DNA of 11,329 bases from a bacterium (GTDB taxonomy: Bacteria > CSSED10-310 > JAJRTK01), in contig JAJRTK010000363.1 in the NCBI GenBank assembly GCA_024278345.1, positions 1 to 11,329 of the forward strand. The letters are read 5' to 3'. The translations under genes were made by a program, and so were the position numbers. Positions 4,906 to 11,329 of this stretch are shown piece by piece. Positions within the stretch are counted from its first letter, which is position 1. Every line of letters begins with the position of its first letter. The notes beneath the pieces are model-generated. The model was not told the origin of the DNA, ran no database searches, and worked only from the letters and a program-made list of their open reading frames with translations.

Positions 4906-6036
4906 ATGACATCATGTAAGAAAATTGCGCTCCTCGCTGGGATTGTCTCCGTCGCCCTCGCGGTACCGGAGATTGCGTTGTCTGGGTCCCGAGGCGGAAG
5001 CCATCGCTCCGGCGGGTCCCATTCGAGTTCCCGAAGTTCGGGACATGCTTCTTCCAGCCGTGGAAGCCATTCCCGCGGAAGCCGTTCCCGCGGAAGCCGT
5101 TCCCACGGAAGCCGTTCCGGATGGTCAGGGCAGCGGGGGCGCGGCTCAAGCTCTCGGGGGCATAGCTCGCGGGGAAGCCGCTCCAGATGGAGAGGACAAA
5201 GCGGATCCTCGGGATCGCGAGGGAGCGGTTCCCGCGGGCAGTATCAAACCCACAGCGGCAGTAGGGATGGCGGCTCCGGCTCCCACCGCCAGGGCCGGTA
5301 CAGGACCCGTCACGGAGGCTCCGCCAACGGGTGGTACGGTGGACACAACAATGGCTATTATGGCGGCAACCATGGCGGCTACTATGGCGGCGGCTACGGT
5401 TATTATCCCTATTACGGTTACTATGACTATTACCCTTACTATTCTTGGGGTTATTACCCTTACTATCCCCTTGGGTGGTCTTGGTATTCCTGGTATTACT
5501 CCCCTTATTACTTAGGAGGTTCTTACGCGGCCACGGGCGACGACGGGTATTACTACGATTCGGAGGGCGATTCCGGCTCGGGCTGGCGAGGCTGGGACTC
5601 GTCTCGCAGCAACGGATATGACGAAGCGCCCGACAATCGCTACCAATTGGAAAGCGACGCCTGGCGCCGCGAATCTGGGTATTCCGGGGCGGCACGGCGG
5701 TCTGGGTATTCCGGGGCAGCACGGCGGGACGAGCCTTCCCGCGGACGGGAAGCACCGGATGGTGCCAGGTGGCGAGAAACCGCTTGGATCTATTTCAGCG
5801 TAAATACGCCCAACGCGAAGGTCTACTTGAACGACAGCTACGTTGGGCAAGCTAGTGAATATGGGTCAGGAGCTTCAGGACTCCCCGTTCGAGCAGGCCA
5901 ACACAAGATCGAGATTGTTGATGGCCCGAAGACCTATTCGGTGGTTATACGCCTGGCGCCGGGGCAACAGTCGCTTGTCCGCCACTCCTTCAAAAAGCCG
6001 GCCCAGAAAACTCGCAAACCGGAAACGTCAAGATAA
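4906..6036 (+). CDS. Secreted Ser/Arg/Gly-rich and Gly/Tyr-rich protein with C-terminal PEGA domain
   Basis: 376 residues. Residues 1-26 form a signal peptide (KK then a hydrophobic run ending ALS). Residues 27-125 are almost only Ser, Arg and Gly with some His, including repeats such as SRGSR. Residues 140-205 are Gly/Tyr-rich (GYYGG, YYPYYGYYDYYPYY), resembling prion-like or adhesive low-complexity sequence. Residues 258-274 contain two copies of SGYSGAARR. Residues 293-361 form a PEGA-like fold: VNTPNAKVYLNDSYVGQ, then GLPVRAGQHKIEIVDG, ending in a Lys-rich tail. PEGA domains are generally surface or cell-wall associated in bacteria and archaea; the molecular role here is unknown. It has its own promoter and no operon partner. 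Strong low-complexity bias makes long antisense frames appear here; they are shadows. Confidence 0.85.
   Translation: MTSCKKIALLAGIVSVALAVPEIALSGSRGGSHRSGGSHSSSRSSGHASSSRGSHSRGSRSRGSRSHGSRSGWSGQRGRGSSSRGHSSRGSRSRWRGQSGSSGSRGSGSRGQYQTHSGSRDGGSGSHRQGRYRTRHGGSANGWYGGHNNGYYGGNHGGYYGGGYGYYPYYGYYDYYPYYSWGYYPYYPLGWSWYSWYYSPYYLGGSYAATGDDGYYYDSEGDSGSGWRGWDSSRSNGYDEAPDNRYQLESDAWRRESGYSGAARRSGYSGAARRDEPSRGREAPDGARWRETAWIYFSVNTPNAKVYLNDSYVGQASEYGSGASGLPVRAGQHKIEIVDGPKTYSVVIRLAPGQQSLVRHSFKKPAQKTRKPETSR
5062..5121 (+). repeat. Four tandem 15-bp repeats coding Ser-Arg/His-Gly-Ser-Arg units
   Basis: Units begin at 5062, 5077, 5092 and 5107, each close to GGAAGCCGTTCCCGC. The first differs by an A for G, the third by an A near its end, and the last diverges after GTTCC. 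They lie in frame in the SR-rich block, so copy-number change would lengthen or shorten it by five residues without a frameshift. Confidence 0.85.
5674..5727 (+). repeat. Two tandem 27-bp repeats coding SGYSGAARR twice
   Basis: Copies at 5674-5700 and 5701-5727 differ at one base (GGCGGC against GGCAGC), a silent change. The high identity suggests a recent duplication in the linker before the PEGA domain. Confidence 0.9.
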
Positions 6037-6118
6037 TACACTCATGGAGACCCATCGGACCACCCCAGAAGCATGAAAGGCTGGACGCCGCGGCCACCGA
6101 TGTTTTCCCCCCCCCAAT

Positions 6119-6324
6119 CTTTTCGCCTGGAGGCCTTCCGGTCTTTCTCCGGCCTTTCGCATGGAGGCCTTCCGGCCTCCAGGCTCTCCGTTGGCGCTCC
6201 CGGTTGCCCGGCAAGAAGCGGGCGCGGGCCGGAAGGCCCAAAATCCGTTCCCCGGAACCTTTTCGCATGGAGGCCTTCCGGTCTTTCTCCGGCCTTTCGC
6301 ATGGAGGCCTTCCGGCCTCCATGC
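6119..6324. repeat. Direct 63-bp repeat pair made of hairpin-forming units
   Basis: Copies at 6119-6181 and 6259-6321 lie exactly 140 bases apart and differ at one base (C at 6127, A at 6267). Each holds two versions of a 21-base unit, TTTCGCATGGAGGCCTTCCG plus G, starting at 6121, 6155, 6261 and 6295. The second unit of each copy folds into a hairpin. At 6299-6324 it is an 11-bp perfect stem, GCATGGAGGCC against GGCCTCCATGC, with loop TTCC; at 6162-6181 the stem is 8 bp. Nine C lie at 6107-6115 just before. Frames are open on both strands only because stops are rare in this GC-rich repeat. It may act as a 3' end or terminator-like structure for the PEGA gene. Confidence 0.85.
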
Positions 6325-6341
6325 TAGCGTTTACTTTCACG

Positions 6342-7792: not shown

Positions 7793-7835
7793 TTTTGGAT
7801 TTTGCGGGCTGTGGAGCCATCCCCGCGGCGAAGGG

Positions 7836-7880
7836 GGCGAGCAGTGGGCGGCGGAGCGCCCGATGGGAGCGGAAGGCAAC
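7836..7880 (+). repeat. Dispersed ~47-bp repeat, copy C
   Basis: It begins GGCGAGCAGTGGGCG and ends GATGGGAGCGGAAGGCAAC. It matches the minus-strand copy at 10450-10404 with five substitutions and a two-base gap, and matches the minus-strand copy at 11183-11234 similarly. It sits in the 170-base gap between the membrane-anchored protein and the ABC ATPase and is inverted relative to the other two copies. Confidence 0.7.
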
Positions 7881-7962
7881 TCAAAGGATTCAAGGAACGG
7901 ACAAAGGTGAGCAAGAACGGGCTTTTCACTGATTCCACCCCGTGCAGAGGTGACCTATCCTC

Positions 7963-8700
7963 ATGATTCGGATCAAAAATCTGGTCAAGACATTTGGCGC
8001 GACGACCGTTCTCCACGGCCTCGACCTCGAGATCGGCAAGGGAGAGTTCTTTTGCTTTCTTGGACCCAACGGCGCCGGAAAGACGACCACGATCAAAATC
8101 TTGACCGGACTCCTGCTTCCCACATCGGGACGGGCTCTTGTGGGTGGCCATGACGTCGCCTTGGAACCCCTTGCCGCAAAGCGCCTCATGGCCTACATTC
8201 CGGATCATCCATTTCTGTACGGAAAGCTGACAGCCATGGAGTTTCTGGAGTTCGTGGCCGGGCTCTACGAACTTCCTCGCACCGAGCTCATGCGGCGGGG
8301 CCCGGAGCTCTTGGATCAATTCGGGATCGGCGACGATCAGGATCGCCTCGTAGAGGATTTTTCCCACGGAATGCGGCAAAAACTGGTCTTCGCCGCCGCG
8401 TTTCTGCACCGGCCCGAGGTTCTTGTGGTGGACGAACCTTGGGTAGGCCTCGATCCTCTGTCCATCCGGAGCATCAAACGGTTTCTGAAAGAAGAGACGG
8501 CCAAGGGACTGACGATCTTCATGTCCACGCACACCTTGACCCTGGCCCAGGAACTGTCGGACCGGATCGGCATTCTCCACCGCGGTGAGCTGCTCTCCCT
8601 TGGTACAGCCGAAAGCTTGCTGGAGACTCTGGGAGGCGGCGACCTGGAGGATGCCTTCCTGGCGATGACGGCGGACGAAGCGGAAGGCGGAGCGAGCTGA
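7963..8700 (+). CDS. ABC transporter ATP-binding protein (ABC-2 type exporter)
   Basis: 245 residues, a complete single nucleotide-binding domain that powers the adjacent permease. Walker A is GPNGAGKTT (34-42), the signature is FSHGMRQK (133-140), Walker B is VLVVDEP (153-159), the D-loop is GLDP (162-165) and the switch His is H190 in STH. The Q-loop position reads YIPDHPFLYGKLT, with Asp81 where Gln is usual. The ATG has AGAGGTGA about nine bases upstream. The stop overlaps the permease start by one base (TGATG), indicating coupled translation. The HGMRQK signature is common in ATPases paired with ABC-2 membrane subunits; the substrate cannot be told from sequence. Confidence 0.95.
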   Translation: MIRIKNLVKTFGATTVLHGLDLEIGKGEFFCFLGPNGAGKTTTIKILTGLLLPTSGRALVGGHDVALEPLAAKRLMAYIPDHPFLYGKLTAMEFLEFVAGLYELPRTELMRRGPELLDQFGIGDDQDRLVEDFSHGMRQKLVFAAAFLHRPEVLVVDEPWVGLDPLSIRSIKRFLKEETAKGLTIFMSTHTLTLAQELSDRIGILHRGELLSLGTAESLLETLGGGDLEDAFLAMTADEAEGGAS

Positions 8701-10394
8701 TGCTGGGAAACGCCGGTCACGGTCTCCGGCCGCTTCTTTGGGTCAAGGGCCGAGTATTGCGCCATCTTGTGAGAAACTTCTTCTCCGGCGGAATCGTGGC
8801 CCCCATATCCGTCGCGGTCATCGGCACACTCTTCACCGTGGGAGGGGCGGCGCTCTTCCTGGCAGCTCTCCAATTTCTTGCCTCCTTCCCCACCGTAGGG
8901 TCGCTCCTTGTGGATCGCATCCTGATCCTCTTTTTCGTGACTCTCATGGTGATGCTCACCTTTTCGGCAATGCTCATCTCTTTTTCGACGCTTTACAAAG
9001 CCGAGGAGATGAAGCTTCTGTGGACGCTTCCCATTGGTCCCGTGGCCCTCTTTCGAGCCCGGACGGGCGAATCGATTTTTCTTGCCGCCTGGGCATTCAT
9101 CGTGCTCGGCGGGCCCATGCTTATCTGCTGGGGAGTCGTCCAGGGCGCCAAGGCGGAATTCTACGTAGTACTTCCCTTGCTCCTTATTCCCTTCACGCTG
9201 GTCTGCGGGCTTGCGGGCGCGCTGCTCACGCTTGGGCTCGCCTACATCTTCCCGCGGCTGAGTTGGCGCACACTCTGCGTTTTGGTGGGACTCGCGGCCC
9301 TTGCGGCCGGCGGCTATGTCCTGGCGGCTTTCGAGGTCTGGCGCGTTCGCGGCTCCAGCTCCCTGGTTCTCTTGAACCAGATCCTGGTGGGGCTGCACAA
9401 TCTCCAATCTCCTTTGGCACCCAGTTATTGGGCCTTTGCGGGACTGGGAGCCGCTGCCCGGGGAAACCTGGCCTCCGCCGCGAAGTTCGGAGCGCTGCTT
9501 TGGATCAATGTGCTGATGCTGGAAGTCGTCTTGGCTCGCTTCGTGCCAAGGCTCTTCTTTCCCGGCTACTCCGCCCTTTCCAAGGCGAGCGGGCGACCCG
9601 GCCGAAAATTTGGTCAAGGCATCCTTGCGTGGCTGGGCCGGCGCCTATGGTTTCTGCAACCGGCGGAAGCAGCGCTCAGCCTTCGGGATTTCCGGCTTTT
9701 CTGGCGCGATCCGGCCCAGTGGAGCCAGTTCCTTCTCTTCGCCATGCTCATGGCGGTCTACGTGGGGAACATCCAGCACCTTCCCCGAGGAGTGAATTCC
9801 CCCGTCTGGATCAACATCCTCCACTACCTGAACCTGCTCTCATGCGCCCTTCTGCTGGCGACGCTCACGTCCCGCTTCATCTATCCTCTCGTGAGCTTGG
9901 AAGGAAAAACTTTCTGGGTTGTCGGCCTCGCGCCTATCAGCCGCTCCCGACTCCTGCGGCAAAAACTCTGGCTCAGCCTCTCCACCACCCTCGTCTTCTC
10001 CGAAATCATGGTGGCCGCCTCCTGCTACCGGATGGCTATTCCCATGACCCGGATCGCCGAATTCTGCCTGGTGATCCTGCTGATGAACCTCACGCTCTCC
10101 AGCGTGGCCGTGGGCTTTGCCGCCATCTACCCAAACTTTGAGGAAGACAACCCATCCAAAATCGTCAACGGCGCTGGCGGAATCATCAATTTCTTCGCCA
10201 GCCTCACGTACACCGTGATTTCCGTTCTCGTTCTAGCTGCACCGCACCATTTCCTCCAAAGTGAACAGATCACTCCCGACGCCACAGGGTGGTGGATCAA
10301 CGCCAGTTGGGTGGCTTTCATCGCCATGAGCCTCGCTTTCGGCACGATCCCTCTCTTATTGGGAATGACCCGTTTCCGGCGCTTCGAATTCTGA
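8700..10394 (+). CDS. ABC-2 type exporter permease, about 12 membrane helices
   Basis: 564 residues, roughly twice the length of a simple ABC-2 half-permease, with about 12 hydrophobic segments (near 35-57, 72-95, 125-148, 155-180, 190-212, 262-282, 344-358, 370-390, 425-445, 452-477, 490-515 and 530-555). Cytoplasmic coupling-type stretches are visible: YKAEEMKLLWTLPIGPVALF (99-118), LRDFRLFWRDPAQWSQ (328-343) and EGKTFWVVGLAPISRSRLL (401-419). NFEEDNPSKIVNGAGGIINF (479-498) resembles the large 'putative ABC exporter' permeases. One ATPase gene precedes it directly, so the likely complex is two ATPases with this permease. It is the last gene of the cluster; no T-tract terminator is seen after it, only the repeat at 10402. 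Confidence 0.92.
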   Translation: MLGNAGHGLRPLLWVKGRVLRHLVRNFFSGGIVAPISVAVIGTLFTVGGAALFLAALQFLASFPTVGSLLVDRILILFFVTLMVMLTFSAMLISFSTLYKAEEMKLLWTLPIGPVALFRARTGESIFLAAWAFIVLGGPMLICWGVVQGAKAEFYVVLPLLLIPFTLVCGLAGALLTLGLAYIFPRLSWRTLCVLVGLAALAAGGYVLAAFEVWRVRGSSSLVLLNQILVGLHNLQSPLAPSYWAFAGLGAAARGNLASAAKFGALLWINVLMLEVVLARFVPRLFFPGYSALSKASGRPGRKFGQGILAWLGRRLWFLQPAEAALSLRDFRLFWRDPAQWSQFLLFAMLMAVYVGNIQHLPRGVNSPVWINILHYLNLLSCALLLATLTSRFIYPLVSLEGKTFWVVGLAPISRSRLLRQKLWLSLSTTLVFSEIMVAASCYRMAIPMTRIAEFCLVILLMNLTLSSVAVGFAAIYPNFEEDNPSKIVNGAGGIINFFASLTYTVISVLVLAAPHHFLQSEQITPDATGWWINASWVAFIAMSLAFGTIPLLLGMTRFRRFEF

Positions 10395-10401
10395 GAGGTC
10401 A

Positions 10402-10453
10402 GTGTTGGGTTCCGCTCGCATCGGGCGCAGTCCGTCGCCCGCTGCTCGCCATG
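10402..10453 (-). repeat. Dispersed 52-bp repeat, copy B
   Basis: It matches 11183-11234 at 46 of 52 bases in the same orientation, and 7836-7880 in inverted orientation. Read on the minus strand it would encode MASSGRRTAPDASGTQH then stop, closely like the first 17 codons of the frame carrying the Avd-like pseudogene. It begins eight bases after the permease stop. The differences between copies are not biased to A, so it is not a DGR template/variable repeat pair. Confidence 0.8.
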
Positions 10454-10622
10454 CCCCCCCGGCGCCAACCCAAAGCCGCACACCCTACACCCACGCCATC
10501 ACGGCGCGCCCCGAACCCGGCTCAACCTCCGGCTCTTCCCGAACCACCCCAACAAGGCTGTGCAGGCCCAAGGACCCGCTCGCAATATCCCTCCGCCCCT
10601 CCCTTTCCCACCCCGCGACTGC
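10454..10622. other. Non-coding stretch after the reverse transcriptase remnant
   Basis: About 170 bases, C-rich on the plus strand. No family-like protein is seen in any frame. It may be decayed retroelement or intergenic sequence. Confidence 0.4.
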
Positions 10623-10838
10623 TCAAAACAGGTACCACCCGAGGGAAGAAGCAAGGGTCCGCCCCAGCTTTTCACGGGCAACGTTCGGGAGCCTCCGACG
10701 CATTCGGCGAAGCCCCTGCCTTCCGGGATCAATCCCCTTCGGGCCAACCCGGGCTCCCAAATAGTTGACTTGACATCGAGTAGACCGGACATGCCGCTTC
10801 CCGGAATGCAGCTCCAACCTTCGGTTTTCCGCCAACCA
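10623..10838 (-). pseudogene. C-terminal (thumb) remnant of a DGR-type reverse transcriptase
   Basis: About 71 codons ending in TGA at 10623. The peptide starts WLAENRRLELHSGKRHVRS, continues TRCQVNYLGARVGPKGIDPG and RQGLRRMRRRL, and ends REKLGRTLASSLGWYLF. In group II-intron-like and DGR reverse transcriptases, the segment after the YxDD catalytic motif follows the pattern L-x-L-H-P-x-K ... G-V-x-F-L-G-x-x-V-x-P-x-G ... R-R-x-R-R-R-L ... S-x-L-G, and this stretch follows it closely. The fingers and palm, including YxDD, are absent: directly upstream lies the Avd-like gene in another frame. The element cannot therefore be active. Recognition is by pattern, not by search, and a thumb of another reverse transcriptase class is possible. 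Confidence 0.6.
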
Positions 10839-11233
10839 ACAAGAAATGGCCCCACACCAGCTTTTCAACTTTGCCTGACAATCGGAAACAACCCACGCCG
10901 ATCCAAAAGCCCCACACTCTCCGCCAACCGAATTCGCACCCGTAATTCCACTAATGCTCGATCCGCGTCTTCCACGCCCTCCACCCTACCATATCCGTGA
11001 AGAGCAAGGGCTATCCGCGACAGCAGCTCCAGCGATGACTCCAGGATCTGACGGCCCAACACCGACGAGCAATTCCTCACCAACTTCCCGTGGAGCCACG
11101 CCCTCAGATCATACGACCCCACGAAAAGTGGGTCGTGCTCTTCTTTTAGGGCGGAGTTCTCGGCAAACCCTTTGTCTTCTTCGTGTTGCGTTCCGCTCCC
11201 ATCGGTCGCCATCCGACGCCCGCTGCTCGCCAT
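10834..11233 (-). pseudogene. avd: Avd-like four-helix-bundle protein (DGR accessory), frameshifted
   Basis: In DGRs, Avd is a small four-helix barrel that binds the reverse transcriptase and template RNA. From about residue 34 the frame reads EEHDPLFVGSYDLRAWLHGKL, then GRQILESSLELLSRIALALHG and DADRALVELRVRIRLAESVG followed by LLDRRGLFPI, which has the helix pattern and length of Avd/four-helix-bundle proteins. It stops at 10865, but the next frame supplies the expected last helix (RLSGKVEKLVWGHFLLVGG), so a single-base indel near 10870-10885 has split the gene. The first ~20 codons come from the dispersed repeat copy A, and the true start is unclear. The reverse transcriptase tail follows at once. 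Alternative: a stand-alone 23S-insert-type four-helix bundle. Confidence 0.6.
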
Positions 11234-11234
11234 G
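11183..11234 (-). repeat. Dispersed 52-bp repeat, copy A
   Basis: It shares 46 of 52 bases with 10402-10453 in direct orientation and resembles 7836-7880 in inverted orientation. On the minus strand it encodes MASSGRRMATDGSGTQH, in frame with the Avd-like sequence. Copies A and B bracket the retroelement remnant. Confidence 0.8.
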
Positions 11235-11257
11235 ATCGCCCTCTTCGCTCCATTGCC

Positions 11258-11329
11258 CTAGGGCTGGAGCACCACCCGTTTTTCGGACCGGCCTCTTCCG
11301 TTGGAGCCCCCATGGCGGATGCCGGTGGG
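11258..11329 (-). CDS. Possible 3' end of a gene, perhaps a DGR target, cut by the window edge
   Basis: Twenty-three codons from the window edge end in TAG at 11258, reading GIRHGGSNGRGRSEKRVVLQP at the end. DGR target proteins with a C-type lectin or formylglycine-enzyme-like fold commonly end in a variable region finishing near GFRVVL plus a few residues, after a GGS motif. GGS and RVVLQP here are suggestive. The position just upstream of the Avd-like gene is where a target is expected. With so few codons this is weak. Confidence 0.25.
   Translation of the reverse strand, partial: PTGIRHGGSNGRGRSEKRVVLQP

Follow-up and report, generated by a model that had tools for sequence, protein, structure and literature searches.

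The window analysed here is the whole of an 11,329-bp contig (C293), part of a 6.06-Mb genome assembled in 550 contigs and 87.9% complete. At the end of this contig, on the minus strand, an Avd-like ORF lies next to a peptide that the initial annotation took for the tail of a DGR-type reverse transcriptase (RT), fused to avd by an internal deletion that had removed the catalytic core. We wondered if the region is indeed what is left of a DGR and, if so, how it was taken apart.

Most of the contig is ordinary-looking. By reading, it contains a sulfatase-like gene, a carbamoyltransferase-like gene and an outer-membrane-like protein, and Pfam identifies a two-gene ABC transporter at 7963-10394. 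An ORF of 376 aa (4906-6036) begins with a signal-like sequence, passes through low-complexity regions rich first in S/R/G and then in Y/G, and ends in a PEGA-like part. Two direct 76-bp copies (93%), rich in the palindrome GGAGGCCTTCCGGCCTCC, occupy 6110-6325 and represent a separate repeat family. A repeat at 113-231 is 84% identical to the start of another contig, C341; since the start of the C341 ORF has protein-level matches at about 100 places, this is probably a further repeat family.

The peptides on which the RT reading was based (ENRRLELHSGK, QVNYLGARVGPKG, RRMRRRL and ASSLGWYLF) are all found on the minus strand in an 81-residue ORF at 10623-10868. Against a DGR-RT HMM built in this analysis from 17 RTs (loci L064, L071, L073-L076, L078-L085, L091, L092 and L096), this tail scores 28.7 bits; 2000 shuffles peak at 5.1 bits and the reversed peptide scores -1.3. 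PHROG 1423 "Reverse transcriptase", which also matches the DGR RT of locus L071 (5e-115), aligns with tail residues 3-78 (E = 1.5e-4). The tail was not recognised by Pfam and NCBIfam RT models or in PDB searches, and phage records and viral contigs searched with it gave no matches. Weaker tail matches in other genomes (L065-L070) look like chance, the matched frame being without RT.

Judged by profile comparison, the tail belongs to the DGR class, since a small group II profile (7 sequences) gives it only 5.9 bits, inside its own shuffle range (maximum 6.3). That the tail of a group II intron or retron RT had landed beside avd is scarcely credible: the genome does carry a group II RT and a retron-like RT (the only others found in the assembly, with no further DGR-type RT), the post-YxDD region is broadly alike among RTs, and a mixed profile of other RTs (6 sequences) reaches 10.9 bits over a shuffle maximum of 4.1, but the DGR score stands well apart from the group II one and the NCBIfam RT models are silent.

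The RT remnant comprises the post-YxDD segment and the start of the thumb, and extends over 10626-10887 (minus strand), corresponding to positions 239-309 of the 361 in the DGR profile. The range given initially, 10623-10838, thus contains RT homology, but a six-frame scan places the beginning slightly upstream, at ~10887; the homology is solid only down to ~10671, and 10626-10670 is poorly supported. The last ~15 residues, which end in ASSLGWYLF, fall outside the profile alignment; the PHROG match reaches residue 78, and the stop codon of the frame is at 10623-10625. YxDD ends at about model position 234 (counted on L074), a few residues before the retained part begins. As claimed, the catalytic core is gone: the six-frame scan of the window detects model positions 239-309 and none of YxDD or the other motifs. 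The 3' part of the RT beyond position 309 is also eroded or lost.

The neighbouring gene is Avd-like, as proposed. Its homologous part (10885-11130, minus strand) covers positions 3 to about 86 of 107 in an Avd HMM built in this analysis from 16 loci, and scores 21.9 bits against 8.7 for the best shuffle. Two public families, PF22296 bAvd (E 0.0015) and NF033474 (E 0.0037), also match it, both under their curated cut-offs. On these scores it is a genuine Avd homologue, yet damaged: the end of helix 4 is missing and the first few codons are replaced by a MITE-like repeat. The ORF described as Avd-like has 122 codons, and codons 1-34 (MASSGRRMATDGSGTQHEEDKGFAENSALKEEHD), including the ATG, lie inside this repeat, which is multicopy in the genome. 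Because the Avd match begins at model position 3, the repeat adjoins avd almost at its natural start. Third-position G+C is 0.67 and 0.62 in the two remnants, only slightly lower than in neighbouring genes (0.69-0.74), and any decay could therefore be recent.

The repeat copy next to avd is full-length (~146 bp; 11131-11276, minus strand). Aligned copies delimit it by imperfect TIRs, GGTGGTGCTC and GAGCACGACC, and at least 40 copies were matched in the genome. The repeat is short, multicopy, bounded by TIRs and without a transposase gene, as MITEs are. Perfect 8-bp TSDs surround nine other copies and TSDs with one or two mismatches surround four more; the copy in the window has no matching TSD, its flanks being GAAAAACG and CACTTTTC. 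With 262 genomic matches to the core motif of the repeat, and 0 to its reversed pattern, a shorter REP-like core may be spread more widely than complete elements are. A fragment of this core lies downstream of the RT remnant (10403-10460, minus strand), and the same core adjoins an avd fragment on C341.

Several further features of the repeat were recorded. It occurs once more in the window, at about 7827-7893. Its internal ATG opens a frame that leaves the element by way of the terminal repeat, and adjoining ORFs can thereby gain codons. At a group II intron RT locus on contig C336 (about 2777-2863 of L001), intron-like sequence seems to begin within a copy of the MITE: the alignment holds as far as GAGCGG and then gives way to an intron-like 5' end. 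We also considered the 146-bp repeat as a DGR template spread through the genome. This was rejected, as the element has TIRs and 8-bp TSDs and its copies differ, by eye, at all kinds of bases and not just at A.

With a start supplied by the MITE, the residual ORF might be expressed and kept for some role. Its 122-codon frame is open and its codon composition is near that of neighbouring genes, but it lacks helix 4 with the GGW end, its family scores stay under all curated cut-offs, no conserved counterpart was seen and the other avd pieces of the genome are broken at different points. We regard such retention as very improbable.

If the region is a remnant, the join between its two parts should be recognisable. 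The remainder of the genome was searched with 10461-11125, and the sole significant extra match is a 59-bp stretch of C341, 95% identical to window 10885-10943. Past the base matching 10885 this paralogue diverges and runs on as Avd helix 4 (YHCLEQMDSLGRQLGG), which falls within a single alignment to Avd profile positions 69-102 and is weak alone. The window instead continues past 10885 with RT homology in another frame, from SDCQAKLKSW at ~10887. The C341 divergence point and the beginning of RT homology are two independent lines that place the join at 10884/10885 on the minus strand, with an uncertainty of a few bases to ~10. The deletion proposed in the initial annotation thereby gains independent support, as the C341 avd departs from the window where RT homology begins.

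The fusion itself does not hold at the protein level. The avd and RT remnants occupy different frames of the same strand, and the avd frame meets a stop a few codons past the join, within RT sequence; the join is thus a DNA junction from which no fusion protein is made. An apparent helix 4 past that stop in the avd frame (VGPFLVGW, overlapping the RT frame) was attributed to chance, because the C341 continuation fits Avd without a stop and differs from it. Nor is the junction the only damage: beyond the one deletion originally envisaged, on the avd side the 5' end is cut or capped by the MITE, and on the RT side the 3' end is eroded.

To estimate what was lost, complete loci are needed for comparison. 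A scan of 84,980 species genomes (three-row alignment) yielded two confirmed relatives, L073 in an Anaerolineae MAG and L074 in a Bryobacteraceae MAG. Both are complete-looking DGR-type loci with an Avd-like ORF, a full RT bearing YVDD and FGE-sulfatase-like proteins nearby. Locus L071 has the same parts, its avd and RT overlapping by four bases, and L040, from the phylum of the window, has avd followed by the start of an RT, in the same order as L071. The tail could have matched no RT, or only a class with no link to Avd; its match is to the DGR class, and each confirmed relative whose whole locus was available for inspection (L071, L073, L074) carries avd along with FGE-type proteins. An intact relative at the same locus, suggested as a means of mapping both deletion ends, was not found, so the RT-side end is placed by profile alignment only. 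Some 20 avd codons and ~238 RT codons would be missing; with parent genes overlapping in the manner of L071, the loss would come to at least about 775 bp. This figure is a lower bound under the assumed avd-RT order.

Could the junctions be artefacts of assembly? In such a chimera, the assembler would have brought together pieces of avd and RT that come from separate loci or separate organisms, and the boundary at the MITE would be a mis-join. The MAG is fragmented, several MITE copies sit at contig ends, the contig analysed here stops 53 bp past one that has no TSD, and the 59-bp avd segment is present twice. However, three differences separate the longest exact run shared by the two copies (~38 bp) from the breakpoint, which makes a k-mer join at that point unnatural. 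The order and strand of avd and RT are moreover those expected for one DGR, an improbable outcome of random joining. A chimera is therefore improbable as an account of the whole region, although the MITE-avd 5' junction taken singly could reflect a rearrangement or an assembly error, given the missing TSD and the nearby contig end.

The region is thus very probably a dead DGR remnant, in which an internal deletion joined avd to the RT tail and a MITE abuts the avd 5' end. It contains a DGR-class RT fragment and avd, adjacent on the same strand; of what a functional DGR needs, both the RT catalytic core and a TR/VR pair are absent, no pair with adenine-specific differences being detected among the repeats of the window. 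With YxDD, the other catalytic motifs and a recognisable template repeat all missing, the remnant would be incapable of mutagenic retrohoming, and is presumably inert. As to its origin, we infer an ancestral cassette, present in several copies, in which avd preceded RT on the minus strand. A single internal deletion of at least ~775 bp would have removed the avd end and the whole catalytic part of RT, connecting avd codon ~86 to RT codon ~239. A MITE-like element would have reached the avd start by insertion or recombination, providing the new start and 34 foreign codons, and other copies of the cassette would have broken elsewhere.

The genome contains three further broken avd pieces, on C341, C531 and C275, with differing breakpoints. 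On C531 (1402-2073 of L121), an HTH-like gene, apparently frameshifted, precedes a middle fragment of avd (LGRQILELSFELGSRIALVLQGYGGL). On C341 (70-465 of L119), a homologue of this HTH-like gene is cut and joined to an avd 3' fragment. On C275 (about 1450-1593 of L118), an HTH-like start (MDLSLRETAALLGRSVRQV) continues, within one short ORF, into the final codons of avd (MRQLDGIGRQLGGWIKR), and this avd end matches the Avd profile with E of about 1e-4 to 2e-4. The HTH assignment is weak and partly made by reading (PF12728 E 0.12; the C531 ORF has no Pfam match). Presence of the HTH-like gene beside avd fragments on two contigs suggests that it belonged to the ancestral cassette.

About 370 bp upstream of the C275 remnant lies an FGE-sulfatase gene (3-1127 of L118; PF03781 E 3.6e-43). 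Read against known DGR variable regions, its C-terminus (RGGSWGSDAWGLRASSRDRFGPGIRPGNYVFRLVR) resembles one, and the gene may be a target that this DGR family has left orphaned. The C275 locus yielded no TR, and the loci examined yielded no second copy of the VR-like end. A wider account, in which a cassette including the HTH-like gene beside avd was duplicated several times, every copy was dismantled by repeat-associated deletions and at least one diversified target was left fixed, is possible but doubtful.

Decay of this kind has precedents. In Thiohalocapsa PB-PSB1, DGR loci are degenerate, with machinery missing or pseudogenised and MITE-like repeats in place of components, and structural variants were observed in long reads (PMC10907252). 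The genome analysed here is similar: several loci are found per genome, some without RT or pseudogenised, and MITE-like repeats replace or delete components. Thiohalocapsa, however, keeps complete loci that show what was lost, whereas only remnants were found here, and in the window the MITE provides a start for the avd ORF (PMC10907252). Truncated DGR RTs were reported in DiGReF (PMC3521204) and a degraded RT-only cassette in Anabaena sp. 90 (PMC7517822). Common to these and the window are inactivated DGR RTs, some of them by transposon insertion; those RTs were truncated through insertions, nonsense mutations or frameshifts, or RT alone was kept, in contrast to the window, where only the RT tail persists and is joined to avd (PMC3521204, PMC7517822). 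MITEs that make in-frame additions to genes have been described as well; those of Coxiella burnetii, compared by their features, are likewise short, have TIRs and direct repeats and overlap ORFs (PMC5896051).

The view of the locus as a snapshot of DGR decay is thus supported, and the window adds a new example to a process already known, DGR decay through deletion and MITE-like repeats being already published (PMC10907252). It puts on record one clean way in which a DGR can be lost: the catalytic core disappears while avd and the RT tail stay. It also illustrates how a pseudogene can acquire a false start from a MITE, a feature by which automatic annotation would be misled. Finally, four remnants with differing breakpoints in one genome could reveal the order in which a DGR cassette decays.
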